Assembly (NCBI GenBank): GCA_945865675.1
Contig: CAMBFO010000013.1
Coordinates: 1-40,925, forward strand
Direction: 5' to 3'
Source: Comamonas sp. lk
Lineage (GTDB): Bacteria > Pseudomonadota > Gammaproteobacteria > Burkholderiales > Burkholderiaceae_C
DNA length: 40,925 bases
The position numbers were made by a program, and so were the translations under genes. The notes under the pieces were generated by a model. It was given only the letters and a program-made list of their open reading frames with translations. It did no database searches and was not told the DNA's origin. Shown here piece by piece: positions 23,083 to 40,925 of the stretch (positions are counted from its first letter, which is position 1; each line of letters opens with the position of its first letter).

Positions 23083-23475
23083 ATGAAAAACCTAGGTTCA
23101 CTCACACACCTTATCGGCATCGCCACCCTGCTATTTGCCAGCGCTGCGCAAGCCGATTGGACGCCTGTCGGACCCACGAGTGGCGCACAATTTTTTATGG
23201 ACAAGGCCAGCCTCACGCGCAAATCGGGCATGGTGCAAGTGTGGGAACTGGTGAATATGGAGCAAGCCGATGGCGAGGGCGTGCGCTCTAGCCGCTTTCT
23301 GGTCGAGTACGACTGCAAAGGCAAGCGCAGCCGGGGCTTGGACATGCTGACCTATACCGAGCCCATGGGTGGCGGCAAACTGATACAACAACTCGGGCCA
23401 GACCCGGATGGCTGGGAAGCCTTGCCGCCGGACAGCATTTTCTCGCAGCGCATGGGCATGGCTTGCGGGAAATGA
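23083..23475 (+). CDS. Surface-adhesin E-like small secreted protein, copy 1
   Basis: A 130-residue exported protein with a clear signal peptide (MKNLGSLTHLIGIATLLFAS, cleavage likely after AQA at residue 24). The mature part is a small all-beta-looking domain starting DWTPVGPTSGAQFFMDKASL and ending in a Cys-containing tail. It resembles the surface-adhesin protein E family, whose members share a W-x-x-V opening, an 'R-x-G-x-V-x-V-W-E-L' strand (here KSGMVQVWELVN) and two cysteines (CKGKRS and MACGK) that probably form a disulfide. Function in this organism unknown; family proteins in Haemophilus bind host matrix proteins, but many environmental homologues are uncharacterised. It begins 13 bp after the GMC gene. 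A second, nearly identical copy of the mature part lies 2.8 kb downstream. Confidence 0.7.
   Translation: MKNLGSLTHLIGIATLLFASAAQADWTPVGPTSGAQFFMDKASLTRKSGMVQVWELVNMEQADGEGVRSSRFLVEYDCKGKRSRGLDMLTYTEPMGGGKLIQQLGPDPDGWEALPPDSIFSQRMGMACGK
23153..23474 (+). repeat. Direct repeat unit A (mature part of surface-adhesin E-like gene)
   Basis: Aligned without gaps to 25942-26263, this 322-bp unit differs at about 23 positions by hand count (about 93% identity). The first 150 bp differ at a single position, while differences cluster in the middle. Similarity ends abruptly at the predicted signal-peptide boundary on the left and just after the stop codon on the right. Confidence 0.9.
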
Positions 23476-23621: not shown

Positions 23622-25622
23622 TTACCCATTTTTCAGGAGTGCCATGACGGCTTGTGGTTGCTGATTTGCTTGGGCAAGCATTGCGGTGGCCGCTTGTTGG
23701 ATGATTTGATTTTTCGCCAAATTGGTAGTTTCAAGTGCATAGTCAGCGTCAATGATGCTGCTGCGTGACTGGGTGGCATTGGATGATATGTTGCTTACAT
23801 TATCCGCTGCGTAGGCAAGTCGGTTGATGTAACTTCCAAGTGTTGCTCGGGTACTGTTAATCGAGTCAATCGTATGGTCAAGTATTGTCAGCGAACGCAT
23901 TGCGTTGTCTCTATTTGAAATGTCCACGCTTAGGTTTGAGGACGCAATAGCTTGGCTCGGTTCGTCTGAAGCAGTTGACCCACTGATGCGGGTCCAAAGT
24001 TTTTCACCTGAAGGCGCGAATTTCGTAAGGTAAGTGTCACGACCTCCGATCGCGCTTTGTCCATCTAAAGTGGTATTCGTGTATCCAGTCATGTAAGCAG
24101 ATCCATCACCGGTAATGGTTAGTCCTCTAGCCCCAGTGGAAGTGCCCGCAGCCCCTTGCAAATTTTGCGTCCAAAGTTGATTTCCCGAGGAATCCAGCTT
24201 GGTCAAGAACGCGTTGTCGGCGCCTGACTGGCTTCCGGTTTCACCGGCAAGGTAGACGGCTCCATCAGACCCAGTCTTGATCATGTAACCTGCGTCTGTT
24301 CCCGCAGTACCCAACAATTTTGTCCACTGTTTTGTGCCATCTGACGAATACTTCATCACAAACGCATCATTACCCCCGTTAGAGGTTTGGCCATCCATGT
24401 CGCCTAATTTCGGGCCGGTAATATAAATCGATCCGTCGACGCTGGTAGCGACGCTATAAACTGCATTTCCTGGACTATTCAGCACACTGGGCACATTGAT
24501 TGCTTGCTGCCAAACCTTGGTTCCATCGGGAGCGTACTTGGTCAGCGAACCTTGATTGTTGGCGCGGCCCGCTACGTAATAGGCGCCATCCTGGCCAATC
24601 GAAACGCTATAACTCGCACCGGAACTTGTACTGCCTAGTATGCGTGTCCATTCCTTTGTGCCGTCTGCATTGAGTTTGATGACCACTCCGTCCTCTGGCG
24701 CGGACAATGTTTGTCCATCGAAGGAGGTGTCTGTCTGGCCGACTAGGACAATTGCGCCATCAGCATCGGTTGTTATAGCGCTGCCAACGTCCTGATCCGA
24801 ACCACCCATCAGTTGTGAATAGACTTTCTCGCCCTCTTGGGTGAACTGGGCTAGAAAAATGTCGCAATCACCTGAAACAGTATTTCCATCAAGATTGCCT
24901 GTCGTTCGACCAGTTACGAGGACCATCCCATCCGCAGATACCGTAACACCACCAATTTCATCGCTGGTTGATGTGCCAATTAATTTGGACCATTGTTTGG
25001 TTCCGTCTGCAGAATACTTTGTCAGGTACCCGTCATTGCTTCCCGCATTAGTAAGACCGTCATAGTCTCCAGCGGAATAGCCCGCTATATAAATTGAGCC
25101 GTCAGACGCTACACCCGCCACTGGGTCAAATTTCAAACCAGGAATTGATACATTCATATTTGTATCAATACCCCCGCCGATTTGTATCGGTTTAGAAAAA
25201 CTCCCATCGAGCAACTTTTGGTCGTTCCACATGGTGGTATCAACAACTTGTCCGACAGCAGTTTGCAGTTGCTGGCATTCTTTGTTGAGGTATCCGCGCT
25301 GAACGTCGCTGTAGGTTCCGTTAGCTGCTTGCACTGCCAGCTCTCTCATGCGCTGAAGCATCTCAGACACCGAGTTCAATCCACCCTCTGCGGTTTGAAC
25401 CAAATTGATTCCATCGTTGATATTGCGAACCGCTTGATTCAAGCCACGAATTTGGGTCGACATGTTCTGCCCGATTGCCAAGCCGGCAGCGTCGTCCTTG
25501 GCGCTGTTAACCCTAACGCCAGTAGACAGGCGCTCCATAGTGGTCGCCGTTGAACGGGCGTTGGTCTTTAAGGCATTTTGCGAATACAGCGCAGATGTAT
25601 TGGTAGTAACAACAAGGGACAT
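23622..25622 (-). CDS. Flagellin with a seven-bladed beta-propeller as variable domain
   Basis: A 666-residue flagellin. The N-terminal D0/D1 part (1-162) is classic: SLVVTTNTSALYSQNALKTN, MERLSTGVRVNSAKDDAAGLAI and GINLVQTAEGGLNSVSEML. The C-terminal D1/D0 part (about 556-666) is also classic, ending QANQQPQAVMALLKNG. Between them, residues about 163-555 hold seven SBBP-type propeller blades in place of the usual D2/D3 domain. Without this insert the protein would be about 274 residues, the size of short flagellins. Two cysteines (Cys116, Cys253) are unusual for a flagellin. AGAGG lies 6 bases before the ATG; I found no convincing sigma-28 promoter. No other flagellar gene is in the window. 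Base composition is clearly lower in GC than the genes to the left (about 50% against 65% in lines I counted). Exposed on the filament surface if assembled; ligand or function of the propeller unknown. Confidence 0.93.
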   Translation of the reverse strand: MSLVVTTNTSALYSQNALKTNARSTATTMERLSTGVRVNSAKDDAAGLAIGQNMSTQIRGLNQAVRNINDGINLVQTAEGGLNSVSEMLQRMRELAVQAANGTYSDVQRGYLNKECQQLQTAVGQVVDTTMWNDQKLLDGSFSKPIQIGGGIDTNMNVSIPGLKFDPVAGVASDGSIYIAGYSAGDYDGLTNAGSNDGYLTKYSADGTKQWSKLIGTSTSDEIGGVTVSADGMVLVTGRTTGNLDGNTVSGDCDIFLAQFTQEGEKVYSQLMGGSDQDVGSAITTDADGAIVLVGQTDTSFDGQTLSAPEDGVVIKLNADGTKEWTRILGSTSSGASYSVSIGQDGAYYVAGRANNQGSLTKYAPDGTKVWQQAINVPSVLNSPGNAVYSVATSVDGSIYITGPKLGDMDGQTSNGGNDAFVMKYSSDGTKQWTKLLGTAGTDAGYMIKTGSDGAVYLAGETGSQSGADNAFLTKLDSSGNQLWTQNLQGAAGTSTGARGLTITGDGSAYMTGYTNTTLDGQSAIGGRDTYLTKFAPSGEKLWTRISGSTASDEPSQAIASSNLSVDISNRDNAMRSLTILDHTIDSINSTRATLGSYINRLAYAADNVSNISSNATQSRSSIIDADYALETTNLAKNQIIQQAATAMLAQANQQPQAVMALLKNG
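23958..25136 (-). repeat. Seven SBBP-like propeller blades inside the flagellin
   Basis: Blades of 51-60 residues lie at about residues 163-222, 223-279, 280-335, 336-386, 387-444, 445-496 and 497-554. The consensus is a DG-[SA]-[IV]-Y-[IV]-[AT]-G strand, a D-[AGT]-[FY]-[LV]-x-K-[YF] strand, then a DGTKQW-[ST]-K-L-[LI]-G strand and a G-[ST]-x-x-D-E turn. Blade 4 is shortest and lacks the loop between the first two strands; blade 2 has Tyr instead of Trp. Several blades share a D-G-x-T-x-x-G-G-x-D loop that could bind calcium; this is inference. Confidence 0.85.
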
Positions 25623-25822
25623 GGACAGCCTCTGAAAGCGTTAGCCCTAAGTCGCTTGCAAACGATAAATCGATTCGAAATTACTCGTTCGCCCGGGCAA
25701 CTTATCACTAATTGATGGGAATTCCATGCGCTGTATGCACAATTTATGCCATATCGCCAAGTATGGCCCTTCTACTCAAAATTCATAGGAAAGGTCAGAG
25801 TAGGCACCGCTTGATGACCAAT

Positions 25823-25865: not shown

Positions 25866-26264
25866 GGAAGCTACTATGGAGCCCAAAACGACACCGCCAA
25901 GGCCGCCATTGCCCCTTTGTTGCCTATCTTCGCCACGTCAACCGATTGGACGCCTGTCGGACCCACGAGTGGCGCACAATTTTTTATGGACAAGGCCAGC
26001 CTCACGCGCAAAGCGGGCATGGTGCAAGTGTGGGAACTGGTGAATATGGAGCAAGCCGATGGCGAGGGCGTGCGCTCTAGCCGCTTTTTGGTCGAGTACG
26101 ACTGCAAAGGAAAACGCAGCCGCGGTCTGGATATGCAAACCTACAAAGAGCCCATGGGGGCCGGCACAGTGTTGCAACAACTCGGGCCAGACCCCGATGG
26201 CTGGGAAACCGTGCCGCCGGACAGCATTTTCTCGCAGCGCATGGGCATGGCTTGCGGGAAATAA
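25845..26264 (+). CDS. Surface-adhesin E-like protein, copy 2 with altered N-terminus
   Basis: A 139-residue frame whose last 107 residues (from DWTPVGPTSGAQFFMDKASL) match the mature part of the gene at 23083-23475 almost exactly, including both cysteines and the end SQRMGMACGK. Its first 32 residues are unrelated to copy 1: MANPCRHGSYYGAQNDTAKA then a short hydrophobic run APLLPIFATST. That run is too short and too Pro-rich for a confident signal peptide. Copy 2 may therefore be a 5'-replaced or decaying duplicate, or use a divergent export signal. The reading frame of the mature domain is intact and substitutions are partly silent (for example a run of changes around 26110-26175 alters only some residues), which argues against old pseudogene status. 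Whether it is expressed is unknown. Confidence 0.5.
   Translation: MANPCRHGSYYGAQNDTAKAAIAPLLPIFATSTDWTPVGPTSGAQFFMDKASLTRKAGMVQVWELVNMEQADGEGVRSSRFLVEYDCKGKRSRGLDMQTYKEPMGAGTVLQQLGPDPDGWETVPPDSIFSQRMGMACGK
25942..26263 (+). repeat. Direct repeat unit B (copy of 23153-23474)
   Basis: This unit is in the same orientation as unit A, offset by 2,789 bp. Together the two copies bracket the flagellin gene. Recombination between them would delete or release a segment of about 2.8 kb carrying the flagellin and would leave one intact surface-adhesin-like gene. Confidence 0.9.
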
Positions 26265-26378: not shown

Positions 26379-27206
26379 TCAATCCGCTAATTGAACCTTA
26401 GCAGTGGAAATGATTTGATTCACAAATTCATTGCGCAATTTCATTTGCAAAGCTTGACGGATTTGACCCTCGGCATCCTCAATCTTTGGCGCCACAAAAT
26501 TGCGAATATCGTCTACTTTAATGATATGCCAAGCATTTTGGACTTGAATGGGTGCAGCTGATACCGAGCCCTTAGACAAATTCACGACCACATTGGCTAT
26601 CAGCGGATTGATCTGCTCTGAAAGCAACCAGCCCAAGTCGCCACCCTGAGATTTGGATGGGTCAATGGATTTTTCTTTGGCGACTTTTTCGAAGGCCTCA
26701 CCCTTGCGCACATTGGCCAAAGCGGCTTTGGCGGCAGCTTCGTCTGGCAAAACGATGCCACGAATTTTGTACTCTTTGGCATCTTTCAAAACCGCAATCT
26801 GACGATCGTAATCGGCACGCACAGCGGCATCTGACACCGGGTTCTTGGTCAGATAGTCTGTGATGAGCATTTCTGCTAAAAAGTTTTGCTTGAGCAATTC
26901 CATTTGCGCCAAAGAACCTTCCTGCTTGTCCAATCCCAGCTTCATTGCCTCCTGGCTGAGAGCAGCACGACCAGCCAGTTCACGGCGCACCACATTGCGA
27001 AGCTCAGGACTGTCCTTAACACCTTGCGCTGCATTGTTTTTAAGAACCTGCTCCAAGAGGGCGTTCGACAAAGGCACAGCATTGACCACGGCGAAACTGC
27101 CCGTTGGTACTTTGGCAGGGGTTGACTGGGCTAACGCTGAAAAACTCTGAGTAAGCGCCACAGCGCAAAGCAAAGATACAACACCCAACTTCTTAGAAGA
27201 ATTCAT
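26379..27206 (-). CDS. Periplasmic parvulin-type peptidyl-prolyl isomerase
   Basis: A 275-residue exported PpiC/SurA-like isomerase, a folding helper for secreted or outer-membrane proteins. It has a signal peptide (MNSSKKLGVVSLLCAVALTQ, cleavage near ALAQ at residue 27), an N-terminal helical chaperone part (about 45-135) and a parvulin domain at about 145-235. That domain contains EYKIRGIVL, KGEAFEKVAKEKSIDPSKSQ, GGDLGWL and the final NAWHIIKVDD. A C-terminal helix completes the chaperone half, as in Par27-type proteins. The ATG at 27206 follows AGGA by 6 bases; a start 10 codons earlier has no such site. It lies 51 bp behind the giant repeat protein on the same strand, so co-transcription is likely and the giant protein is its probable client. 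Confidence 0.9.
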   Translation of the reverse strand: MNSSKKLGVVSLLCAVALTQSFSALAQSTPAKVPTGSFAVVNAVPLSNALLEQVLKNNAAQGVKDSPELRNVVRRELAGRAALSQEAMKLGLDKQEGSLAQMELLKQNFLAEMLITDYLTKNPVSDAAVRADYDRQIAVLKDAKEYKIRGIVLPDEAAAKAALANVRKGEAFEKVAKEKSIDPSKSQGGDLGWLLSEQINPLIANVVVNLSKGSVSAAPIQVQNAWHIIKVDDIRNFVAPKIEDAEGQIRQALQMKLRNEFVNQIISTAKVQLAD

Positions 27207-27257
27207 TTCATTTCCTGGTAAAAAAAACAAAGTCAAAACCGAGCTACTTTTAAGCGC

Positions 27258-30200
27258 TTAACGATAACTCACTTTGAGCCCTTGACCGGATATATCACCA
27301 GACCACCCGGGAACAGCAACATCGACCGACCAAACTGAACGCTCCACAATGGGGCTCAGCACCAAAGGAGCCGGTTTTTCCTGCTGCTCAGAGGTTTTTT
27401 GATCGTCCAAGTTAAATTCCACATTGGGCGCACTCAAAAACAAGGGCACGAAAGCAAGCACGGGCGCTTTAAACGTCACATAGCCCGCGAAACGCTCCAT
27501 ACCCGCAATCGCCATCGTCTTTGCAGCATCTGGGAGCATGGGAGCAATCGAGGCAGCAAAGCTCACCTGCCCTGGCAGTGAGTAGTTGGCCAGCGTTTGA
27601 GCGTTGCCTATCAAAGTCACACCACCGAAGGACACCGTTTTGTTGGTACCTACGCGAGCGTCATTGAAGGTAGGCGCATTGCTTGTGATTGAAAGGACAT
27701 CGCTGCCGAATAAACCATTGAGGACCAAACGACCTGACGCCGACACGGTGCCGTCATAAATTTTAGAATCCACCGCCGCCATCATAGTTGGCGAGCTAGG
27801 GACAGGACTTGTGCCTGGCGCAACAAACACAATTTGGTACGGGTTGATCACCAAATTGGCATTGCCAAAGGTGAAAGCATAGTTGCCAGCATCGGCACCC
27901 GACACAGCAATGCTCGAAGCATAGGTGCCCACGTTCACCCCGCTGGCTTGCGCATTGCTGACCGTGATCAGATCCCCGGCAAGGACACCCGTGATAGATG
28001 CAGCAGCTTGCGTTTGGCTTGCGCCGTTGTAGATTTTGCTGGTGGCTGAAGCCAACACAGACAAAGATTTGGGTGTTATCGCCCCTGTGAAGTTATTCAA
28101 GCCCACCAAGCTGTAGTTACTTGAATCAGCACCCGTCAACACATTGGAGGCGGCCACCACGCTCAGTGCTTTTCCTGAACCGACATTTTTGTTGTTATAG
28201 GCCGCTGTCAAGCCCGCGCTGTTGAACTTAACCACATCGGAGCCCAGCACACCACTAAGGGTGCCAGCACCCGTATTCAACACAGCCGCAGTGGTGCCGT
28301 CGTACACTTTGGTGGTGATGCCAGCACTTGCAATAGTCACAGGTGCCGGCGTGACGTTAGCGGTGGTTGTCACGGTACTGCCAATGCTGCCTAAGGTGTA
28401 GTTAGACATGGCGCTGCCCGATAGGGTGATCCCGCTGAAAGTCACGGTTTTACCCGTACCCACATTGACATCGGCAAAAGTAGGCGCATCACTGATAACG
28501 GTCAAGGTGTCGCCACCAAACAAACCGCTCAAGCGCAAGCTACCTACTGCCGCTGTTGTGGCGTTGTAGACCTTGTTGTTGGCCGTTGCTGTCAAGCTCA
28601 CCACGCCTGGTGTTGGCGTGGTGCTTGGGTCTGCGCCAGGCGCCAGCGGCACAATTTGATAAGGATTGATCACTAAATTGGCATTGCCAAGTGTCAATGC
28701 ATAGTTGCCAGCATCGGCGCCCGAGACCGAAATGTTGGATGTGTAAGTGCCAGCGTTGGTACCAGTCGTTTGCGCATTGCTAACGACGATGTCATCGCCA
28801 ACCACAAAACCAGAATTGACTGCAGCTGCCTGCGCTTGTGAAGTGCCGTTGTATGTTCTGGTGCTCGCAGTGGCCATCACTGAAGCTTGCGCTTTAGTGA
28901 CCAACATTTCACCGTTCACATTCACGGTATTTGCAAGGCCAGCACTGGTATTGACTGTCAAGTCACTCACTTGTAATGCGTAGTTGCCCACCGCTGTAAG
29001 GCCTGATGCAGATTGCACCGTCCCAGTGGGCGTTAACTTAAAGCTCACCGTATTGCCTGCGCCATCTGCATAGGTGTACAAACCACCGCTCACACTTTGC
29101 AAGCTGAGGTTGCGAATCACATTGCTGGTGTCTTCATATGCGACGCCGGCCACTGCCGCATTGTTGGTGCTGGTTCCATAGACTTGCTGGCCCCCATTGG
29201 CGATTTGAATCGCCACTTTGTTGGTGGGTGTGATGGTGTAGTTGCCAGGCACATACGTGACGGCGTAGTTACCCAACACGCTCGCACCAGTCGGCACCAA
29301 ACTACCTGCGTAGGTGGTACCAGCGGTCTCATTGGTGCCAACACCTAAGCGTGCCACACTGATGCCAGGAGAGTTGCCAAGGACCCCTGCAGTTTCACCG
29401 TTAACAAATCCTTGATAGTTCACGCCCGCGTAACCTACCGCGGTATCAATGACACCCGTGCTGTCTGCTTGGCCCACAAACTTGCCATTGCTATTGGCAA
29501 TGACTTGCAAGCTGGCCGGCGTAATGCTGGCGGTCGTCGTTACCCGGTTAGCCGAACTAGACAACACATAATTGCCCAAGGTAGTGGCATTGCCTAGCAA
29601 GCTCACACCATTGAAGCTGACCGTTTTGGCGCTGCCCACATTGGCATCTGCAAACGCAGGCGCTTGGCTAGTGGCACTCAAAACATCACCGGCAAACAAG
29701 TTAGTCACCGACAACAAGCCATTGACGGCTGAAGTGCCGTCATACACCTTGTCGCTGGCGGTGGCCGTCAGCACAGGTGTACCCGCTGGCGGAGTAACAC
29801 CAGGGGCAAGCGGTGAAATTTGGTAGGGGTTAATAACTAAATTGCTGTTGTTGTAAGTGATGCTGTAGTTGCTCGCGTCCATGCCGTTCACAGCCAAGCT
29901 AGACATGTAGGTTCCGGCATTTCGGCCAGAGGCAATTCCGCCAACAGTCAATACATCTGCCGCAATGAATCCTGCAAGGGTAGAGGCTTGGTATTGCACA
30001 GCACCGTTGTAGGTGCGCGTTGCGGGTGTAGCCGTGACGCTGGCGGCTTTGGGCGTGATGCTGCCGGTGAAGTTACTGATGTTCGTCAACACATAGTTCG
30101 CAAAATCTGCGCCGCTCAAGGCCAAGCTTGGCGCCGTCAAAGTCAAAGACTTGGTAGTGCCCACATTCTTGTCAGAAAACACTGCGGACAAGCCGGTACT

Positions 30201-33200
30201 GGGCAAATTGACGACGTCATTGCCCAAAACGCCTACCAATGCATTGGAGGCTAAGTTCAGGGTGAACGCCGTGTTGCCGTCGTACACCTTAGTGGGTGTA
30301 CCAACCCCGCTGAGCTGCAAGGATGCAGGGGTGATGTTGGCCGTGGCGGTCAGGGTAGTACTGGTATTGGCCAACACATAGTTGGCCAAGGTGCTGGCAT
30401 TGCCCGACAAGCTCACACCAGCGAAGCTGACGGTTTTAGCCACGCCTACGTTTTTACTGGCATAGGTTTGCGAGGTACTAGTGGCCGTCAAGACATCGCT
30501 GCCAAACAGCCCAGTCACCAAAAGCGAACCGGTGGCTGCGGTAGTGGCATCGTAGACTTTGCTGTTAGCCGTTGCCGTCAGCACTGGTGTGCCAGGAGCC
30601 ACAGTGACGCCTGAATTGCTGGCAGGAATCACATAGGGGGTGATCACCAAGTTGGCGTTTTGGGTGCTGATGCTGTAGTTACTCGCATCAACACCTGTCA
30701 CAACAATGCCCGAACTATAAGTACCCGCATTTTGGCCAAGCACCTGCGTGCCTGTCACCGTGATGGCGTCACCCGCAACAAAGCCTGTAACGACCGCATT
30801 GCTTTGCGACTGCTGCGCTCCGTTATAGACCACACTGGTTGGGGTTGCCCTGATGCTAGCCGCCTTGGGCGTGATGTTGGCCGTCGCGGTCAAGGTGCCG
30901 CCAAGGTTGCCCAAGGTGTAATTGCCCAAGGTGCTGGCGCTGCCAGCCAAAGTCACTCCCGCAAAGCTCACTGTTTTGGCCGTGCCCACATTTTTGTCGG
31001 CAAAGCTAGGCGCGTTGCTTGAGATGCTCAACACGTCGTTGCCAAACAAACCTGTCACTGCCAAGGCGCCGGTGGCTAAGCTGCTACCGTCGTACACCTT
31101 GCTGTTAGCTGCGGCTGTAATGACAGGAGTGCCAGGTGACACAGTGGCACTGGCTAGTGCCAATTGGTAAGGTTTGATGATGAGATCGGCGTTCGTCACA
31201 GCCACGCTGTAGTTGCCAAAGTCAATACCACCCACCAGGAGATTAGATGCATAAGTTCCGGCATTGATGCTGGATGCAGCACCCGTGACCGTGATCAGGT
31301 CGTTGGCCAAGAAACCTGCGCGTGCGGCCAATTGCGTTTGGCTCGCGCCGTTATAGGTCACCGTAGTGGCTGCGGCTATCACTGATGCATTGGCCTTGGT
31401 GACAATCAAATTGCCACTGACATCAGCGGTGCCCACCAAGTTATTGATGTTCGTGATGGTCAACCCACCTGACAGGGCCAGAGAATAATTGCCTACGACG
31501 GTATTGCCAGAGCTGGAGTTCACTATGCCAGTGGGTGCCAAGGTAAAACTAACGGTGCCGCCATTGGTATCCTGGTAGGTATACACGGTTGCGGCGCCTG
31601 AACCCGCCGCACTGCGAGGCGTCAAGGTTTGCACCACATTATTGGAGTCCAAGTAGGCCACTGTTGCAATACCAGGGCCGACACCCGTGCTGCCGTAAAC
31701 CTGCGTTGCGCCTCCAGCAATTTGCAAAGCCACTTTGTTTTGCGGCGTGATGGTGAAAGTACCTGGGGCATAGGTGAGCGCATAGTTGCCCAAGTTGGCG
31801 GGTCCTGTCGCTACCAATGCACCCGTATAGACACCGGCGGCTTCAATACTTCCCATGCCAGGACGCGTGAGGGTGATGGCGGGTGATGCGCCCAACGCAG
31901 ACACCGATTCACCGTTCACAAAGCCCAAATAACCCAAACCTGCATAGTTTGTGGGATCGGCCTGGGTGATGAACTTGCCATTGTTGTTAGCCGTTACCAG
32001 CAAGGGGGCAGGTGTAATGCTGCCCGTCAGCGCATTCAAACCCGTCAAGGTGTAGTTGCCCGCATCCGTGCCCGTTAATGCATTGTTAGCAAGGCCCACA
32101 CTCATGGCTTTTGCTGTACCCACATTGGCATTGGCATAGTTGGCCGTCAGGCCGACGCTGTTCAAGGCTAAGACATCACCCACAATGACACCATTCAATG
32201 TGGCCCCAGACAGGTTCAGGGTGGCAACGGTGCTGCCGTCATATACCTTGCTGGTGGTGCCAAGCATCACCAAGCTCACATCTTTAGGCGTGATGCTGCC
32301 CGTGATGCTGGTTAAACCTGTGAGGGTGTAGTTGTTTGCATCAGTGCCCGACAAGGCGCTGCCAGCCGCCACATTCAAGACTTTGGCTGTACCCACATTT
32401 TTATCGGCATAGCTAATGGTCAAGCCACTGGCATTCCAGGTCACTGCGTCGCCGGCAATCAAGCCCGATACCGATGTGCCTGTAGCACTCAGTGTTGCAG
32501 TGCTTGTGCCGTCATACACCTTGCTGGTGTTGCCAAGCACAGACAGCACCACCGCTTTGGGTGTAATGCTTCCGGTGTAATCACTCAGACCTGTGAGAGC
32601 GTAATTAGCTGCGTCAGCCCCGGACAACGCCGTCGTACCCACCGTGACGGTGAGCGCTTTGGAAGCGCCCACATTTTTGTCGGCAAAACTGGCGCTCAGT
32701 CCTGCTGAAGCAAAACTGACAGCATCCTGGCCCAAAACGCCCACCAAACTGGCACTGCCCGCGTTCAAAGTGACCGCGCTATTGGAATCGTAGACCTTGG
32801 TGGTCATGCCCACACCACTCAATGTAAGGGGTGCGGCTGAAATGGTGCCGGTGAAACTGTTCAAGTTGGTGAACACATAGTTGCCTGCGTCCACACCCCC
32901 TAAGGCACCAGCCCCACCGGCGACGCTGATCTGTTTGTTCAGGCCGACATTTTTGTCGGTGAAACTGGCCGACAAGACACTGGCGTTGTAGTTCACCGTA
33001 TCGCCCGCTATCACACCCGACAAGGAGCCGGCATTGAAATTCAAACCCGTTGCGGTTGTGGCGTCATAGACCTTGTTGGCCACACCTACACCTACCACCG
33101 TCAGCGCGGCAGGGGTGATGTTGGCCGTGGCAATCATGGCGGGGCCGACATTGTCCAACTTGTAATTGGCCAAAGTTGTGGGATCACCATTCAAAGTGAG

Positions 33201-36200
33201 GCCTGCAAATGTCACGGCCTTGGTATTGCCCACATTTTTATCAGCGAATGTGCTCGAGGTGCTGCTAACCGTGAGCACGTCACCAGCAAACAAACCACTC
33301 AAAGTCAGTGCGCCTGTTGCCTGCACATTGGCGTTATAAACCTTGTTGTTGGCTGTCGCTGTTAGCGTAGGAACGCCCACTGAAGCAGAGCCTATGGGAG
33401 CAATCTGCGCAGGATTGATGATCAGGTTGGCATTGGTCAGTGCCACCGTGTAGTTACCCACATCAGAACCACTCACCGCCAGGCTAGACGCATAGGTTCC
33501 CACGTTTTTACCAAGCGCTTGGGCGCCTGTGATGGTAATGGCATCAGCACTTAAAAAGCCCGAGGTGACTGCGGCCAACTGCGACTGGGTGGCGCCGTTG
33601 TAAGTCAGAGTGGTGGGCGTGGCCACGACCGATGCATTAGCTGGCGTGACTGTGAACAGACCGTTAACAGACAGTGCCGTACTCAGGTTACTAATGCCTG
33701 TCACAGACAAGTTGCTGCTGGTCAGCGTGTAGTTTCCAACGGGCACCTTCAAAGCGCCCGATTGCACACTGGTAAGTGGCGTCAAGGCAAAGCTCACCGT
33801 CGCGCCCGTGCCAGACTCCACAAAGGTGTACTGCGCTGAGCTCGCGTTACCCGTAACGCTTTGCTGCGTAAAGGTATGCACGGTGCCGTTGGTGTCGGCA
33901 TAGGACATGCTGGCAATGGTGGGCGCCACGCCCGCCGTGCCATACACCACGCTGTTGACCGAGCCGCTGGCCAATTGGACAGACAACTGGTTGCTTGCCG
34001 TGATGGTGTAATTTCCGGGCGCAAAACTGAGTGCGTAGTTGCCCAAAGTGGTCGGCCCAGAAACTGTCAACGCATTGACGTACACACCTGCGGCTTCAAC
34101 ACTGCCCTGCCCGGCACGCGCCACGCTGATGGAGGGGTTGCTGCCCAAAGCGGTTGTAGCTGTTTCGCCATTGACCCAACCCACATAGGTCACACCAGCG
34201 TAAGTTGCAGTGTCACTTTGACCTGCAAATTTGCCATTGCTGTTGGCAGTGACCAGCAAAGACGCTGGGGTGATACTGCCGGTGTAAGCATTCAAGCCTG
34301 TCAATGTGTAGTTGGCAGCATCAGCACCTGAAAGAGTGGTGTTGGCTGCAAGCACAGTGAGTGCTTTGTTAACGCCCACATTGGCGGTGTTGTAGGTGGC
34401 ACTTAAGCCGGTGGTACTGACCACCACGGCATCACCGGCAATCACGCCACTCACACTGGCGTTGCTCACATTCAACGCGGCCACCGTGCCGCCGTCATAG
34501 ACCTTGGTGGTCGTGCCCACATTGATCAAAGTCAACGGTGCAGGCGTGATGTTGCCGGTAAAAATACCCAAACCCGACAGCACGTAGTTACCGGCATCAG
34601 CGCCCGCCAAGGGGGTACTGCTCAAAGTGACGTTCAATGATTTGCCAACGCCAACATTCTTGTCCAAGAAAGAACTGGCCAAGCCATTGGCATTCAAGCT
34701 CACGGCATCGCCAGCCACAAGACCAGACAACGTAGCATCAGCCGTGTTCAACACCGCCGAAGTAGTGCCGTCATACACCTTGTTCACAGAACCAACATTG
34801 CTCAGCACCAAGGAGGCAGGTGTAATGCTGCCAGCTAAACCCGTGATGGCGCTTAAGGTGTAATTACCTGCGTCGATGCCGGTCAAGCTGCCTGCTCCTG
34901 TGCTTACCGTCACGCCTTTGTTGGCGCCCACATTTTTGTCTGCGTAATTCGCACTCAAAGCACTGGCGTTCACAGCAATGGAATCGCCCAACACAATGCC
35001 CGACAAAGCGGCAGAAGCCAAATTCAATGCAGCCAGTGTGTTGCCGTCATACACTTTGGAAGTGGCTCCCAAGCCTGTCAAATTTACGGTTTTGGGCGTG
35101 ATGTTGCCCGTGAGGCTGTTCAAATTGGCCAGGCTGTAATTGGACGCATCGATGCCCGTTAATGCGCTGGCCGTCGCGACGACTTGCAGCGCTTTGTTGT
35201 CGCCTACGTTCTTGTCTAAGTAGGCGGCTGTCAATTGTGTGGCTGACACATTCACCGCATCACTGCTCAAGACACCGGCCAGCCCAAGACCTGTACCCAT
35301 GGTGGCCGTTAAGTTGCCATCGTAAACTTTGCTGCTGGCACCAGAAACCGTCAAGCTCAAGGGTGCAGGTGTGATGCTACCGGTGTAACTGTTCAAGCCT
35401 GTGAGGGTGTAGTTGCTGGCATCAGCACCACCTAAGGCAACGCTACTGGCTGTCACGATCACGGACTTTGCCGACCCTACGTTTTTATTGGCATAGGCGG
35501 CCGTCAAACTTGACGCATTCAGGTCAACCGCATCGGAACCTATGACACCCAACAAACTGGCATTGCCCGCATTCACTGGTGCATTCAAGCTGGCGTCATA
35601 CACTTTGTTGAAACTGCCCATGCCGCTTAAGGTCAAAGGCGCAGGCGTGATGTTGCCGGTGAATGTGTTCAGACCCGTCAAGGTGTAGTTGCTAGCATCT
35701 GCACCACTCAAAACACCTGCGCCTGCTGTGACATTCAAGTTCTTGGCAGTGCCAACATTCTTGTCAGCAAAACTGCTGCTCAACACCGAGGCATCAAAAG
35801 TCACGGTATCACTACCGACGACACCACTCAAGCTTGCGCTGCCAAGGCTCAAAGTAGCGCTGATCGTGCCGTCATAAACTTTTGAAGTTGTACCGACACC
35901 CGACAAAGATACAGGTGCTGGCGTGATGGTTCCTGTTAAGGTATTGAGGCCGGTCAAGGTGTAGTTCTGCGCATCCGCACCGCTCAGTGCATTCGTGGAA
36001 GTGACGTTCATGGCTTTGCCAGTGCCCACATTTTTATCCGCAAAGGCAGCGCTCAAACCAGAAGCCGTCAAGGTCACGGTATCGCCTGGAATAACGCCCA
36101 CTACCGCTGCGTTGCTAGCAAGTAGCGTAGCGCTTGTCGTACGGTCATAGACCTTGGTGGCCGCTGAAATTCCTGAGATTGTCAACTGCGCAGGCGTGAT

Positions 36201-39200
36201 ACTGCCCGTCAAATTCGTCAAATTGGTAAAGCTGTAATTGCTAGCATCTGCGCCAGTCAATGCACCAGTCCCCGCACTGACCGTCAGCGCCTTTTGATTG
36301 CCGGCATTCTTGTCTGCAAAGGCAGCCGACATGGCTGCAGGCGTGAACGTGACGGTGTCGTTACCCAAAACACCCGAAATGGTACTGCTGGCATTCAAAG
36401 CGGCTGAAGTTGTGCCGTTGTAGGCACGGGTGATAAGGCCTGCGGTGTTGAGGGTCAATGGCGCAGGCGTAATGACCAAGTTCGCATTGGTCACCGTCAA
36501 GGTGTAGTTATCCAAGTCATTCTGCGGGTTGCCACTGCTCACAAGTACATTGGATGCATACGTTCCCGCGTTTCGGGCCGTCGCTTGGATGCCAGTCATG
36601 GTGATGGCATCACCCGCCACAAAGCCAGAGACAGTGGCCGCTGTTTGGGTTTGATTGCCGGCGTTGTAAACCACGCTGGTTTGTGTCGCACTGACCGATG
36701 CAGCAGCTTTGGTCACCACCAAATTGCCACTCACATCGGCGGTGGTCAATAAATTGGGGATGTTGGATACGGTCACAGCGCCCGACATGGCCAAGGCGTA
36801 GGTGCCCACTTTTACAGTGTTGGATGTGGACGCCGTGGTACCCGTTGGCACCAGAGTGAAGTTCACGGTGCCCGCCCCTTCCACGTAAGTGTAAGTTGTA
36901 GCGGCGCCCGAGCCCGACACACTTTGCTGAGTCAAAGTATGCAAGGTGTTGCTATTGTCCATGTATTGCACAGAAGCAATAGAAGGCGCTGTACCTGCTG
37001 TGCCATAGACCTGCGTCGCGCCGCTGCTCACTTGCAGCGCCATAGTGTTGTAACCCGTGATGGTGTAGGTACCAGGCGCATAGGTAATGGCGTAATTGCC
37101 CAAGTTGGCAGGACCCGCTGCAAGCAATGCCCCCACGTATACGGCAGGGGTATTGACTAAACTGTTGTTGCGCGTCACGGCAATGCCGGGGTTAACACCC
37201 AAGGCAGCTAAAGATTCACCGGCTACAAAACCGGCATAGGCCACACCGGCGTAACCGATGGTGTTGTCAATATAGCCGACGGTGTCGGCTTGACCAATAA
37301 ATTTACCGTTATTGTTGGCCGTGATGAGCAAGGGTGCTGGCGTGATGGTTCCGGTCAATCCAGAAGTTCCAGTCAACACATAGTTACCCGCATCGCTTCC
37401 ACTCAAAGCGCCGGCACCGCTTGCCACGCTCAAGGCTTTGCCTAGGCCTGCATCTTTAGTGTCATAAGTGGCCGTCAAACCCACGCTGTTGAGTTGAACT
37501 GCATCGCCTTGAACAGCACCTGTCAAGCTTGCAGTGCTCAAGTCAAGCGCCGCATTGGTGTTGCCGTCATAGACTTTGGTGGTGGCACCCAAATTGGCCA
37601 GCGTCAAGGTCGCAGGTGTGATGGCACCCGTGTAATTGCCCAAACCCGTCAGAACATAGTTGCCGCCATCGGTACCGCCCAACGCGGCATTGCCGGCAGT
37701 CACGGTCAAGGCTTTGCCTGAACCTACATTTTTATCGGCATAGATACTGCTCAGGCCGCTGGCTGCAAATGTCACCGTGTCACCGGTCAATACACCAGAC
37801 AGTGTGGCGCTACCGGCATTCAAGCTGGCCGTGGTGGTGCCGTCATAAACCTTAGTAGTCGAACCCACACCGGAGAGCGTCAATGCGGCGGGCGTGATAT
37901 TGCCCGTGACACCGGTCACGCCTTGCAGTGTGTAGTTGGCGGCATCGGTGCCGCCCAAAGCGCTGCTCGTAGCGGACACCGTAAGTGGCTTGTTGCTGCC
38001 CACGTTTTTGTCGGCATAGGTGGCCGACAAACCTGCAGAACTCAAACTAACGGTGTCTCCTGTGAAGACACCTGCCAAGGTCGCGCTACCCAAATTCAAG
38101 CTTGCGCTTGTGGTCGTGTCGTAAACTTTGCTCGCTTGACCAAGGCCGGAAAGGCTCAGTGGTGCCGGCGTGATGTCGGCACTGACGCCTGTAATTTGTT
38201 GCAATGCGTAGTTAGAGGCGTCCGCACCGCTCAAGGCGCTGGCGCCCGCCACAGTGATGGTCTTCGCAGTCCCCACATTCTTGTCTGCAAAAGTACCTGT
38301 AACACCGGTTGTGGCAATCGAAACGGCATCCCCTACCACCAGACCTGTCAATGTGACGTTAGTTGTAGTCAGTCCGGCTACATTGGTTGCGTTGTAGCTT
38401 CGACTGACACCGGCCAAGCCGGTCAACGTCAGGGGCGCAGGCGTGATGGCACCAGCGATGGACAAGGTGCCGGTCATTTCGTAGTTGCCAGCATCCGCGC
38501 CAGACAATGCGGATGGCGCCGCTGTGATGACGACCGCTTTGGAACTGCCTACATTTTTGGTGTCATAACTGGCCAACATGCCCGAGGCATTCAGGGTGAG
38601 GGCATCGCTGCCCAAAACGCCTGTAAGCGTCATCGCACTGGTGTTCACGGAGGCATTGGTGGTGCCGTCATACACCTTGGTGGTCGAACCCGAGCCCGCC
38701 AAAGCCAATGGTGCAGGCGTGATGGAGCCCGTAAAACTCGTCAAGTTTGAAATACTGTAATTGCTGGCCTCTGAGCCAGTCAACACGCCTGCCCCAGCCA
38801 CAACCGTCAAGGCTTTGCCAACGCCCACGTTTTTGGTGTCATAAGTGGCCGACATCGCCGCAGCATTGAAATTCACTACATCGCCAGGCAAAACGCCGCC
38901 CAAGACGGCGCTGCCTGCATTCAAGCTGGCTGAGGTGTTGGTGTCGTAGACCTTGGAGGTGGTGCCCACCCCAATGAGAGTCAGTGGTGCAGGCGTAATA
39001 GCGCCTGTGTAATTGGTCAAACCTGTCAAAACGTAGTTACCGGCATCGGTGCCCGTTAACGCGGCGGTGTCACCGCTCACAGTCAATGCCGAAGTCCCCA
39101 CGTTTTTGCTGGCGTATTGCGCTGACAAAGCACTGGCTACAAAGCTGACAGTGTCGGTACTCAAAACACCCGTAAGTGCGGCGCTGCCCATGTTCAACAA

Positions 39201-40925
39201 AGCCGCAGTGTTGCCGTTGTAGACCTTGCTCACAGCACCCACATTGGCCAATGTCAATGTAGCGGGATTGATGGTCAATGCTGCATTGTTGATGGCCACC
39301 GAGTAATTGACCAGGTCATTGTTGGCATTGCCACTGCTTAAGGCAATATTTGAGTTGTAAGTACCGGCGTTGCGACCGGTGGCTTGCGCAGCAGTAATAC
39401 CGATTGCGTCACCACTCAGGAATCCGCTGGCGGTATATGCAGTTTGTGACTGCATGCTGGCGTTGTAGGTCAGCGTTGTAGGCGTTGAAGACACCGTGGC
39501 GCTGGCCGGCGTTACGGTTGAACCCCCTGCAACCACCATACTGGTGCTTAGCTGCGCAATGGTGGAGCTCATCAAGCCAGACTGCACCACAACATAGTCG
39601 CCCACTTTGGCCTTGCCCGCCGTAGAGAGTGATGCGTTAGCCACCGAAGGTGCCACGGAAAAACTGACAGTGCCATTGGCCCCATCCGTGTAAACGTAGC
39701 TGCCCAATGAAGCTGTTCCCGTGGCGCTGGTGAGTGTCAACGTATGCAACACATTGCTGCTGTCTTTGTAGACGACTGAGGCCAACAAAGGTGCCGTGCC
39801 TGTTGCACCGTACACAGTACTGCCATTGGCCAGAACCGCCAGGGTATTGGTGGCCAAGGCGGTAATGGTGAAGGTGCCTGGCGCATAGGTCAGCGCATAG
39901 TTGCCAAGCGCGGCGGGGCCCGCTGCTGTCAGTACGTTGCTGTAAACACCCACGCTGTTGACTGAACTGTTGCTGCGCGTGACGGTGATACCTGAAGAGA
40001 CACCCAGAGATGCCGCTGCATCTCCGTTGACAAATCCGCTGTAAGACACACTGCGGAAACCCGTTGGATCGGGCATGCCTTCGTATTTGGTGGCGGTATT
40101 GGCCGTCACGGTCAAAGGTGCAGGTGTCACCGTTACTGTCGCGGTGTTGCTGGTGATGCTGTAATTGCTAGACGCACCCACTGCAAAAGTAATGTTGCCA
40201 GGGGTGACCTCATAGCTGCCCACATTGGCAGACGACGCGAAGCCCGATGAACTCAACGCAAAATTGGTGATCACATCATTGATCGTCACACCGTCGACGG
40301 TGACACCGTTGATGACACCTGTGGCTTGCGAAGCCGTGCCGGTGGGCGTGATGGACTGACCATAAACCTTGGTCAATGCAGTGGGCGTGAGGGTCAAGGG
40401 CGCGGGCGTTATTTCAAGGCCCAAGTAAGGCGCCTTGCTGCTATTGCCCGACAAGCTCAAGTCCACGCCAGCTGCCAGCAGCACACCATGTGCGCTAGTC
40501 AATGTGTAAGCATAGGGCGTGCTGGGCGAAGTCACTTGCTCACCCGCTAAGGTGCCGTACTGTGCGCGCGTTGCGGTGACGGTGTTCAAGAAATCGCTCA
40601 TGCGAAGCTTGAACTGCATGCCATTGACCAAGACCGCAAAGTACTCCACGCCGCCTTCCACACTGAAGCCGGGGTTGGCTGTGGTGGACTTGATGAGGTT
40701 TCTATTGAGCTGATATTCCAGCGAACCGGCCACATTCACCGAGTTGTAGGCGGTACTCGGATCGGCCGTACCGTACACCTTGGTGAAATTGTCGGTGAGA
40801 AGCATGTTGGCTTGCGCCACTGCACGGAACTGAATCACAGGGCCTTGTGTGCCACTGGTGGTCGTGTTGGTGGTGGGCAGCGCGCTAGCCAATGCCGACG
40901 TATTGATACCCGCCAAGGTGGTGAT
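27258..40925 (-). CDS. Giant YDG/MBG-repeat exoprotein (adhesin-like), 5' end outside window
   Basis: The frame is open to the right edge, so 4,555 codons here are only the C-terminal part of a larger protein. It is built from YDG repeats (theme: KVYDGTT-x-ASLNAG, then GVL-x-GD, YADKNVG, SGADAGNY-x-LTGL, ITPAPL) and MBG-type repeats (theme: TANNNGKF, YAGFVNGES, LGNYALTYAPGTYTI). I counted about 27 YDG units in five super-modules. Such arrays occur in filamentous-haemagglutinin-like and other very long surface proteins, where they act as stalks. I noticed no cysteine and very few tryptophans. The last 93 residues (from MLPDAAKTM) are non-repetitive, lack a membrane anchor or LPxTG-like signal, and end GQGLKVSYR. 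The export partner (TpsB-type or type I) is not in the window. A TTG at 40914-40916 is not a credible start. Role in attachment is inference from the family. Confidence 0.88.
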   Translation of the reverse strand: MTTLAGINTSALASALPTTNTTTSGTQGPVIQFRAVAQANMLLTDNFTKVYGTADPSTAYNSVNVAGSLEYQLNRNLIKSTTANPGFSVEGGVEYFAVLVNGMQFKLRMSDFLNTVTATRAQYGTLAGEQVTSPSTPYAYTLTSAHGVLLAAGVDLSLSGNSSKAPYLGLEITPAPLTLTPTALTKVYGQSITPTGTASQATGVINGVTVDGVTINDVITNFALSSSGFASSANVGSYEVTPGNITFAVGASSNYSITSNTATVTVTPAPLTVTANTATKYEGMPDPTGFRSVSYSGFVNGDAAASLGVSSGITVTRSNSSVNSVGVYSNVLTAAGPAALGNYALTYAPGTFTITALATNTLAVLANGSTVYGATGTAPLLASVVYKDSSNVLHTLTLTSATGTASLGSYVYTDGANGTVSFSVAPSVANASLSTAGKAKVGDYVVVQSGLMSSTIAQLSTSMVVAGGSTVTPASATVSSTPTTLTYNASMQSQTAYTASGFLSGDAIGITAAQATGRNAGTYNSNIALSSGNANNDLVNYSVAINNAALTINPATLTLANVGAVSKVYNGNTAALLNMGSAALTGVLSTDTVSFVASALSAQYASKNVGTSALTVSGDTAALTGTDAGNYVLTGLTNYTGAITPAPLTLIGVGTTSKVYDTNTSASLNAGSAVLGGVLPGDVVNFNAAAMSATYDTKNVGVGKALTVVAGAGVLTGSEASNYSISNLTSFTGSITPAPLALAGSGSTTKVYDGTTNASVNTSAMTLTGVLGSDALTLNASGMLASYDTKNVGSSKAVVITAAPSALSGADAGNYEMTGTLSIAGAITPAPLTLTGLAGVSRSYNATNVAGLTTTNVTLTGLVVGDAVSIATTGVTGTFADKNVGTAKTITVAGASALSGADASNYALQQITGVSADITPAPLSLSGLGQASKVYDTTTSASLNLGSATLAGVFTGDTVSLSSAGLSATYADKNVGSNKPLTVSATSSALGGTDAANYTLQGVTGVTGNITPAALTLSGVGSTTKVYDGTTTASLNAGSATLSGVLTGDTVTFAASGLSSIYADKNVGSGKALTVTAGNAALGGTDGGNYVLTGLGNYTGAITPATLTLANLGATTKVYDGNTNAALDLSTASLTGAVQGDAVQLNSVGLTATYDTKDAGLGKALSVASGAGALSGSDAGNYVLTGTSGLTGTITPAPLLITANNNGKFIGQADTVGYIDNTIGYAGVAYAGFVAGESLAALGVNPGIAVTRNNSLVNTPAVYVGALLAAGPANLGNYAITYAPGTYTITGYNTMALQVSSGATQVYGTAGTAPSIASVQYMDNSNTLHTLTQQSVSGSGAATTYTYVEGAGTVNFTLVPTGTTASTSNTVKVGTYALAMSGAVTVSNIPNLLTTADVSGNLVVTKAAASVSATQTSVVYNAGNQTQTAATVSGFVAGDAITMTGIQATARNAGTYASNVLVSSGNPQNDLDNYTLTVTNANLVITPAPLTLNTAGLITRAYNGTTSAALNASSTISGVLGNDTVTFTPAAMSAAFADKNAGNQKALTVSAGTGALTGADASNYSFTNLTNLTGSITPAQLTISGISAATKVYDRTTSATLLASNAAVVGVIPGDTVTLTASGLSAAFADKNVGTGKAMNVTSTNALSGADAQNYTLTGLNTLTGTITPAPVSLSGVGTTSKVYDGTISATLSLGSASLSGVVGSDTVTFDASVLSSSFADKNVGTAKNLNVTAGAGVLSGADASNYTLTGLNTFTGNITPAPLTLSGMGSFNKVYDASLNAPVNAGNASLLGVIGSDAVDLNASSLTAAYANKNVGSAKSVIVTASSVALGGADASNYTLTGLNSYTGSITPAPLSLTVSGASSKVYDGNLTATMGTGLGLAGVLSSDAVNVSATQLTAAYLDKNVGDNKALQVVATASALTGIDASNYSLANLNSLTGNITPKTVNLTGLGATSKVYDGNTLAALNLASAALSGIVLGDSIAVNASALSANYADKNVGANKGVTVSTGAGSLTGIDAGNYTLSAITGLAGSITPASLVLSNVGSVNKVYDGTTSAVLNTADATLSGLVAGDAVSLNANGLASSFLDKNVGVGKSLNVTLSSTPLAGADAGNYVLSGLGIFTGNITPAPLTLINVGTTTKVYDGGTVAALNVSNASVSGVIAGDAVVVSTTGLSATYNTANVGVNKALTVLAANTTLSGADAANYTLTGLNAYTGSITPASLLVTANSNGKFAGQSDTATYAGVTYVGWVNGETATTALGSNPSISVARAGQGSVEAAGVYVNALTVSGPTTLGNYALSFAPGNYTITASNQLSVQLASGSVNSVVYGTAGVAPTIASMSYADTNGTVHTFTQQSVTGNASSAQYTFVESGTGATVSFALTPLTSVQSGALKVPVGNYTLTSSNLSVTGISNLSTALSVNGLFTVTPANASVVATPTTLTYNGATQSQLAAVTSGFLSADAITITGAQALGKNVGTYASSLAVSGSDVGNYTVALTNANLIINPAQIAPIGSASVGVPTLTATANNKVYNANVQATGALTLSGLFAGDVLTVSSTSSTFADKNVGNTKAVTFAGLTLNGDPTTLANYKLDNVGPAMIATANITPAALTVVGVGVANKVYDATTATGLNFNAGSLSGVIAGDTVNYNASVLSASFTDKNVGLNKQISVAGGAGALGGVDAGNYVFTNLNSFTGTISAAPLTLSGVGMTTKVYDSNSAVTLNAGSASLVGVLGQDAVSFASAGLSASFADKNVGASKALTVTVGTTALSGADAANYALTGLSDYTGSITPKAVVLSVLGNTSKVYDGTSTATLSATGTSVSGLIAGDAVTWNASGLTISYADKNVGTAKVLNVAAGSALSGTDANNYTLTGLTSITGSITPKDVSLVMLGTTSKVYDGSTVATLNLSGATLNGVIVGDVLALNSVGLTANYANANVGTAKAMSVGLANNALTGTDAGNYTLTGLNALTGSITPAPLLVTANNNGKFITQADPTNYAGLGYLGFVNGESVSALGASPAITLTRPGMGSIEAAGVYTGALVATGPANLGNYALTYAPGTFTITPQNKVALQIAGGATQVYGSTGVGPGIATVAYLDSNNVVQTLTPRSAAGSGAATVYTYQDTNGGTVSFTLAPTGIVNSSSGNTVVGNYSLALSGGLTITNINNLVGTADVSGNLIVTKANASVIAAATTVTYNGASQTQLAARAGFLANDLITVTGAASSINAGTYASNLLVGGIDFGNYSVAVTNADLIIKPYQLALASATVSPGTPVITAAANSKVYDGSSLATGALAVTGLFGNDVLSISSNAPSFADKNVGTAKTVSFAGVTLAGSASTLGNYTLGNLGGTLTATANITPKAASIRATPTSVVYNGAQQSQSNAVVTGFVAGDAITVTGTQVLGQNAGTYSSGIVVTGVDASNYSISTQNANLVITPYVIPASNSGVTVAPGTPVLTATANSKVYDATTAATGSLLVTGLFGSDVLTATSTSQTYASKNVGVAKTVSFAGVSLSGNASTLANYVLANTSTTLTATANITPASLQLSGVGTPTKVYDGNTAFTLNLASNALVGVLGNDVVNLPSTGLSAVFSDKNVGTTKSLTLTAPSLALSGADFANYVLTNISNFTGSITPKAASVTATPATRTYNGAVQYQASTLAGFIAADVLTVGGIASGRNAGTYMSSLAVNGMDASNYSITYNNSNLVINPYQISPLAPGVTPPAGTPVLTATASDKVYDGTSAVNGLLSVTNLFAGDVLSATSQAPAFADANVGSAKTVSFNGVSLLGNATTLGNYVLSSSANRVTTTASITPASLQVIANSNGKFVGQADSTGVIDTAVGYAGVNYQGFVNGETAGVLGNSPGISVARLGVGTNETAGTTYAGSLVPTGASVLGNYAVTYVPGNYTITPTNKVAIQIANGGQQVYGTSTNNAAVAGVAYEDTSNVIRNLSLQSVSGGLYTYADGAGNTVSFKLTPTGTVQSASGLTAVGNYALQVSDLTVNTSAGLANTVNVNGEMLVTKAQASVMATASTRTYNGTSQAQAAAVNSGFVVGDDIVVSNAQTTGTNAGTYTSNISVSGADAGNYALTLGNANLVINPYQIVPLAPGADPSTTPTPGVVSLTATANNKVYNATTAAVGSLRLSGLFGGDTLTVISDAPTFADVNVGTGKTVTFSGITLSGSAMSNYTLGSIGSTVTTTANVTPAPVTIASAGITTKVYDGTTAAVLNTGAGTLSGVLGSDVVKFNSAGLTAAYNNKNVGSGKALSVVAASNVLTGADSSNYSLVGLNNFTGAITPKSLSVLASATSKIYNGASQTQAAASITGVLAGDLITVSNAQASGVNVGTYASSIAVSGADAGNYAFTFGNANLVINPYQIVFVAPGTSPVPSSPTMMAAVDSKIYDGTVSASGRLVLNGLFGSDVLSITSNAPTFNDARVGTNKTVSFGGVTLIGNAQTLANYSLPGQVSFAASIAPMLPDAAKTMAIAGMERFAGYVTFKAPVLAFVPLFLSAPNVEFNLDDQKTSEQQEKPAPLVLSPIVERSVWSVDVAVPGWSGDISGQGLKVSYR
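27541..29526 (-). repeat. Super-module 5 of the giant protein (MBG block + 3 YDG)
   Basis: It opens LQVIANSNGKFVGQADSTGV and has three YDG units, two of the long subtype, again alternating with 'NGASQTQAAA' MBG units. The final unit (SKIYDGTVSASGRL) runs into the unique C-terminal tail. Limits are approximate. Confidence 0.7.
29527..32019 (-). repeat. Super-module 4 of the giant protein (MBG block + 4 YDG)
   Basis: It opens LLVTANNNGKFITQADPTNY. Three of its four YDG units are of the long subtype ending in TLANY or TLGNY, and they alternate with 'TYNGA-x-Q-Q' MBG units, giving a different rhythm from modules 1 and 2. Limits are approximate. Confidence 0.7.
32020..34274 (-). repeat. Super-module 3 of the giant protein (MBG block + 5 YDG)
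   Basis: It opens LLVTANSNGKFAGQSDTATY and carries five YDG units. The first belongs to a longer subtype (KVYNANVQATGAL ... TLANYKLDNVG) that also appears in modules 4 and 5 and not in modules 1 and 2. Limits are approximate. Confidence 0.7.
34275..37345 (-). repeat. Super-module 2 of the giant protein (MBG block + 8 YDG)
   Basis: It opens LLITANNNGKFIGQADTVGY and has the longest YDG run, eight units. The first of these reads RAYNGTTSAAL rather than KVYDG. The block TQVYGTAGTAPSIASVQYMD is shared with the other modules. Limits are approximate. Confidence 0.7.
37346..40140 (-). repeat. Super-module 1 of the giant protein (MBG block + 7 YDG)
   Basis: It opens with LTVTANTATKYEGMPDPTGF, the most divergent of the five MBG openings, then a TVYGATGTAPLLASVVYKD block, a TLTYNASMQSQTAYTASGF block and seven YDG units. 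Unit 4 is degenerate (SRSYNATNVAGL). Limits are approximate. Confidence 0.7.

Follow-up and report, generated by a model that had tools for sequence, protein, structure and literature searches.

The DNA analysed here (the window) is one whole contig, C13, of 40,925 bases, belonging to a draft genome of 2.72 Mb (169 contigs, 88.9% complete). A single open reading frame on its reverse strand has flagellin sequence at both ends and a repeat of the SBBP type in between. The gene and its parts are as follows, the blade limits having been drawn by hand about nine residues ahead of each DG strand motif.

23622..25622, minus strand: propeller flagellin gene, open reading frame of 666 aa with ATG start and no internal stop
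25197..25610, minus strand: Flagellin_N (D0/D1), residues 5-142 (Pfam PF00669, E 3.1e-38)
23943..25130, minus strand: SBBP-type seven-unit propeller, about residues 165-560 (Pfam, self-comparison and blade profile; approximate limits)
24960..25130, minus strand: blade 1, residues 165-221 (this and the following blades from DG motifs and blade profile)
24789..24959, minus strand: blade 2, residues 222-278
24618..24788, minus strand: blade 3, residues 279-335
24465..24617, minus strand: blade 4, residues 336-386, short and irregular
24294..24464, minus strand: blade 5, residues 387-443
24132..24293, minus strand: blade 6, residues 444-497
23943..24131, minus strand: blade 7, residues 498-560, including a C-terminal part unit (residues 541-560)
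23634..23891, minus strand: Flagellin_C, residues 578-663 (Pfam PF00700, E 1.8e-21)

Flagellin ends and the propeller between them

The protein covers 138 of the 139 profile positions of Flagellin_N and all 86 of Flagellin_C, both above the Pfam cut-offs, and the complete N- and C-terminal helical regions that mark a bacterial flagellin thus lie on one polypeptide, which bears out the canonical flagellin ends described in an earlier sequence-only reading of this DNA. Against the NCBIfam flagellin models the protein scored below the cut-offs (best 241.9 versus 443 among the matches listed), and among PHROGs a family of unknown function, phrog_16088, matched residues 1-664 (E 4.4e-49). Flagellin_N matches elsewhere in the draft genome were confined to two genes on contig C75.

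In the middle of the protein the SBBP repeat model (PF06739) reached 27.0 bits in the Pfam search, above its curated cut-off of 20.5 and as expected of an SBBP beta-propeller (24.6 bits in the genome scan), and the DUF5122 beta-propeller model reached 28.4 bits against a cut-off of 27, with no single stretch passing alone. Self-comparison of this region gave a period of 57 aa (z 7.4 versus 100 shuffles) and the DG strand motifs were located at residues 174, 231, 288, 345, 396, 453 and 506, that is, at spacings of 57, 57, 57, 51, 57 and 53. A blade profile, seeded with the units of a second genome of the same genus (G036) and iterated over the fetched relatives including the window protein itself, found six full or near-full units and two complementary part units, the first with profile positions 20-57 and the last with positions 1-19 (a weak match, E 0.029), which add up to seven unit-equivalents of about 57 aa. 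Unit count and motif spacings are close to the seven consecutive blades of 51-60 residues that had been proposed.

The closest solved structures by sequence were those of CylK (PDB 7fh6, 7fh7, 7fh8 and 7ron; E 9.1e-36), the C-terminal domain of which is reported to be a propeller of seven blades that binds calcium at every junction between blades (eLife 2022, PMC8916777). Designed "Cake" chains of several lengths (6tji to 6tjb) also matched the insert (best E 3.8e-22), so that the size of the ring is not fixed by the similarity of the units alone. Among 55 propeller groups in the fetched relatives, counted on uncut reading frames with at least three units and gaps of at most 45 aa and with near-copies only removed so that related proteins count apart, seven units were found in 39, six in 7, three in 4, five in 3 and eight in 2. 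One of the two eight-unit groups is that of the window protein, whose part units were counted separately and whose summed cover is 6.7 units; all seven six-unit groups were proteins of 930-1010 aa without flagellin ends. The homology to CylK and the commonest count in the relatives support the idea that the insert folds as one closed seven-unit domain, and from this homology and the unit counting we infer a closed ring.

The 930-1010 aa proteins without flagellin ends match the window propeller at ten loci in 10 of 398 genomes of the phylum (L097-L100, L102-L104 and L106-L108). SBBP was reached in Pfam by two of the four that were scanned, and four of the loci (L103, L104, L106 and L108) have a flagellin C-terminus immediately upstream, encoded on the same strand. 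These proteins may resemble Caulobacter FlaEY. FlaEY is described within the flagellar cluster of Sphingomonas (PMC8921679), and if the likeness were true, propellers would meet flagella twice; SBBP gave no match in the Caulobacter vibrioides control genome, which counts against it. Two further relatives stood out: the propeller nearest to that of the window by bit score (L067:5941-8232) comes from a record titled Prochlorococcus sp. AG-321-E21 and reflects either a contaminant or a transfer, and a reading frame of 5160 aa, cut by a contig end (L026, G081:C29), contains 33 SBBP units, arranged in several groups that resemble propellers.

With the propeller left out of the alignment, the window protein tracks ordinary flagellins as far as residue 161 or so (MNVSIPG) and rejoins them near residue 563 (NLSVDIS). 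We take the insertion point to be the end of D1, the usual seat of D2. At this place the genome's short flagellin (282 aa from the listed TTG; 271 aa from the ATG that aligns with other flagellins) has only a linker. The short flagellin is encoded on contig C75 together with a rod/hook gene, flgH, flgI, the gene of a rod-binding protein, flgK, flgL, fliD and flaG, and the propeller flagellin gene is an orphan away from this flagellar operon. The flgK of this operon (L025:3408-7979) encodes 1523 aa, with about 1150 residues between FlgK_D1 and the C-terminal domain, in which the only match was to Flagellin_IN. Given a separate flagellar operon with a short flagellin of its own and an orphan propeller gene elsewhere, the propeller flagellin is more likely a minor or alternative subunit, and the earlier expectation that the propeller would project from every subunit was not supported. 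Two flagellins arranged in one filament have been described in Shewanella putrefaciens (PMC6299084).

Surroundings and putative control region of the gene

The gene is surrounded by the following features.

23115..23414, plus strand: direct repeat copy 1, inside an Adhesin_E-like gene (23083-23475)
25735..25752, minus strand: sigma54-like site ATGGCATAAATTGTGCAT, 130 nt ahead of the ATG (matrix score, shuffles)
25904..26203, plus strand: direct repeat copy 2, inside an Adhesin_E-like gene (25845-26264) on the opposite side of the flagellin gene
26379..27236, minus strand: PpiC-type peptidyl-prolyl isomerase (Pfam)
27258..40916, minus strand: giant protein of at least 4552 aa with 30 YDG and 6 MBG_2 stretches, reaching the contig end

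The two 300-nt copies of the direct repeat that flank the propeller flagellin are 87% identical. GC content was 0.54-0.65 in the 23 one-kilobase windows up to 23 kb (at least 0.56 in 22 of them) versus 0.50-0.57 in the 17 beyond. Of 103 genomes of the genus, 27 (that of the window included) carry the neighbouring GMC oxidoreductase, and for 15 of the remaining 26 the site could be compared, in 16 stretches altogether. The identity of the GMC protein was 99% in G036, 97% in G067, 96% in G019 and 95% in both G002 and G010, and in these five the GMC gene is followed by an Adhesin_E gene of at least 78% identity; in a sixth genome, G090, it is followed by one of 56%. No flagellin or propeller was found at E 1e-8 in any of the 16 stretches, among which that of G036 is uninformative, its contig ending 184 bases past the Adhesin_E gene; beyond this gene the DNA extends for about 11.7 kb in G067, 10.5 kb in G019, 5.6 kb in G002 and 2.7 kb in G010. 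In four of the five relatives the Adhesin_E gene is followed by tRNA-Ser(tga), 35-37 bases on in three and 669 in G019, and none was found in the stretch from G002. No tRNA was found in the window, and the best match of the draft to tRNA-Ser is weak (73% over 63 bases), which has little meaning at 89% completeness. We read the lower-GC stretch as a putative insert between the Adhesin_E gene and tRNA-Ser, with its far end outside the contig.

The giant YDG protein is probably an adhesin of the same insert, and its presence beside the gene makes attachment the first guess for what the propeller flagellin might do. The propeller could instead be a purely structural outer domain, in which neighbouring copies touch one another and texture or stiffen the filament, tuning swimming with no ligand involved. 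Contacts between outer domains that tune motility have been described in other bacteria (PMC8931119, PMC12445082); the propeller gene, however, is an orphan beside the YDG giant and not the flagellin of the operon, and we consider the structural explanation rather unlikely.

Upstream of the gene, the score of ATGGCATAAATTGTGCAT was reached by 8 of 1000 mononucleotide shuffles. The sigma54 matrix consisted of 17 strict sites, at -101 to -128, from 17 of 47 other flagellin upstream regions of the genus, the remaining 30 having no strict site. Upstream of the G036 gene a weaker sigma54-like match was located at -128 (96 of 1000 shuffles scored as high), and the leaders of both genes end with GAGGCTGTCC ahead of the ATG. 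A sigma28 pattern gave no matches in the window, and relaxing it produced a single match among 56 upstream sequences, a set that includes duplicates. A sigma54-type site fits better than a sigma28 one.

A second genome and the rarity of the architecture

In G036, flagellin N and two blades run off the end of contig C49 (372 aa), and seven blades and flagellin C run in from the end of contig C64 (12,172 bases; reading frame of 719 aa). These pieces adjoin genes for dnaK, dnaJ, UPF0176 and GST in one case and for acyl-CoA dehydrogenase and ETF in the other, a different place from the site in the window. Both contain a Flagellin_IN-like stretch that is absent from the window protein (24.2 and 20.2 bits versus a cut-off of 22.7). 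That the two pieces form one long gene was considered, and the similar stretch ahead of the blades in both may fit two paralogous genes better.

The sequence-only reading had named a frameshift or an assembly error joining two genes as what would overturn it. An artefact of assembly or binning has on its side the GC step at about 23 kb, the 87% repeat flanking the gene, the draft state of the genome in 169 contigs at 88.9% completeness and the fact that the G036 gene is also broken at contig ends. An artefact would, however, need two in-frame joins within one intact reading frame, and since the join of flagellin N to the blades and that of the blades to flagellin C both recur in G036, we regard this explanation as most improbable.

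The N-terminal regions of the window and G036 proteins grouped (support 96/97) in a 49-row tree in which the bootstrap was unsettled, the G036 branch long and the window row of unusual composition; by identity, the N-terminal region of the window protein was closest to a flagellin of another genome, G028 (71%), and not to that of G036. The C-terminal regions did not group in a tree of 45 rows, built on a redone alignment after an earlier poor one, and a constrained grouping was not rejected (p-AU 0.266). Furthermore, the window and G036 propellers do not start at the same position within the unit, so that a single origin of the two is not proven.

Pairwise comparison of the nine G036 blades, taken from both pieces, gave dN/dS of 0.27-0.83 in all 36 pairs, which indicates constraint on the G036 blades; the blades of the window protein are mostly saturated and too diverged for such an estimate. 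This bears on the possibility that the propeller is a decoy, a surface domain swapped in under selection by grazers or flagellum-binding phages and having no binding role. Variable regions of flagellins are reported to turn over by recombination (PMC7018530), but the integrity of the whole domain and the constraint on the G036 blades fit a functional domain somewhat better, and we think the decoy unlikely.

The propeller part was matched in 12 of 100 genomes of the genus at E 1e-3, 4 of 399 of the family at E 1e-15, 6 of 399 of the order, 11 of 369 of the class and 16 of 398 of the phylum (the last three at E 1e-8), each count including the genome of the window, in draws that overlap and of which the wider ones scored at most four to five first-look candidates per genome. 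Reading frames around every listed propeller match were tested with profiles of the flagellin ends, and at these loci only the window genome and G036 carried flagellin ends and propeller on one reading frame; within the genus the architecture was seen in 2 of 103 genomes. A full-length search of the 103 genomes, three of which were covered solely by it, gave no further span from a flagellin end into a propeller among the matches listed. A scan of 84,980 species, run with two short peptide patterns to which diverged cases would be invisible, turned up propeller relatives at 16 loci, and of these only the G036 contig had a flagellin end. In viral contigs, the scan with query P0001 found no relative and that with query A1 found one flagellin, without a propeller by the blade profile; matches in plasmids (217 records) and phages (14 records) included none covering 80% of the query. 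Within the draft genome itself SBBP at E 0.001 was found only in the propeller flagellin gene, and hence no other SBBP gene visible in the assembly was the source of the propeller.

Large frames of tandem flagellins, taken up as candidate fused double flagellins, were rejected as the DNA shows separate reading frames. In five genomes of the genus (L164-L168) flagellin genes are arranged in tandem, three to six to an array (276-328 aa where uncut).

The flagellin-propeller architecture is real and rare, its function putative. The orphan position of the gene, the lower GC content and the occurrence in 2 of 103 genomes are all compatible with a silent or decaying gene that was carried in with the insert. 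The frame is open, however, both flagellin ends are complete and a promoter-like site lies upstream, and a silent orphan is in our opinion distinctly unlikely.

Proposed role and comparison with known systems

We propose, with a probability of roughly 0.55, that the gene encodes an accessory flagellin in which a complete seven-bladed SBBP propeller takes the place of the outer (D2/D3) region and would be displayed as a binding platform. The propeller flagellin would be exported unfolded through the flagellar type III system, the propeller would fold outside, perhaps with calcium as at the blade junctions of CylK, and the subunit would co-assemble with the short flagellin, itself lacking an outer domain. 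The resulting filament would then display the propeller as a platform for binding surfaces, particles or glycans; binding of polysaccharide, as earlier suggested, is a guess. In a more elaborate form of the proposal, a mobile adhesion island provides a sigma54-controlled flagellin that studs a smooth filament with propellers, exported unfolded and closing outside with calcium, and turns the flagellum in part into an attachment organelle. This full chain of events is possible, on balance improbable.

If the protein is made and assembled, it would show that an entire propeller of seven blades and about 400 residues can pass the flagellar export channel and be displayed along the filament. This would extend the natural cargo of flagellin past the domains so far described. 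It would also provide a ring-shaped scaffold for display that occurs in nature, and a case, open to testing, of an acquired gene turning the flagellum into an attachment organelle.

The closest precedent is flagellinolysin (Eckhard et al. 2017, PMC5595980), which like the window protein has a foreign folded domain set into the variable region between flagellin N- and C-terminal ends. The insert of flagellinolysin is a gluzincin peptidase and its domain is reported on the flagellar surface, whereas the insert described here is an SBBP propeller in which no enzyme motif was found, in a protein known from its sequence. No peptidase family was present among the listed Pfam and NCBIfam matches and no HExxH motif in the window protein, which sets it apart from flagellinolysins. 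An enzyme presented on the filament is suggested by the existence of enzymatic flagellins (PMC5595980) and by CylK itself being an enzyme; catalysis by CylK, however, is reported to require both of its domains (PMC8916777) and only the propeller is present here, and no enzyme family was seen among the Pfam matches or the best 25 of 28 NCBIfam matches, making an enzymatic role very unlikely. CylK resembles the insert as its closest solved relative by sequence, a seven-bladed propeller (PMC8916777), and differs from the window protein in being an enzyme with an N-terminal calcium-binding domain and no flagellin parts.

The same repeat family occurs in the SBBP lipoproteins of the LipL53 family, whose NCBIfam model (NF047494) scored 145.8 bits over the insert, far under its equivalog cut-off of 400; those proteins are lipoproteins and not flagellins. 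The sialidase fold is a beta-propeller, and flagellins annotated with a sialidase domain would likewise carry a domain of the propeller class in the variable region. Such annotations rank tenth, with 10 sequences, in Table 1 of the survey that listed 61 domain types in the variable regions of 26,587 flagellins, metallopeptidase (86 sequences) among them (PMC5595980); they concern a different family from SBBP and appear in that table as database annotation. The supposed novelty of a propeller flagellin therefore needs qualifying. A literature search covering titles and the starts of abstracts showed no title on a propeller flagellin among the papers listed, an earlier mention of an SBBP flagellin being possible; on the other side stand the known foreign-domain flagellins, including the ten annotated with Sialidase (PMC5595980). 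Flagellins with foreign inserts are already known, and the SBBP propeller insert is a new variant of them.
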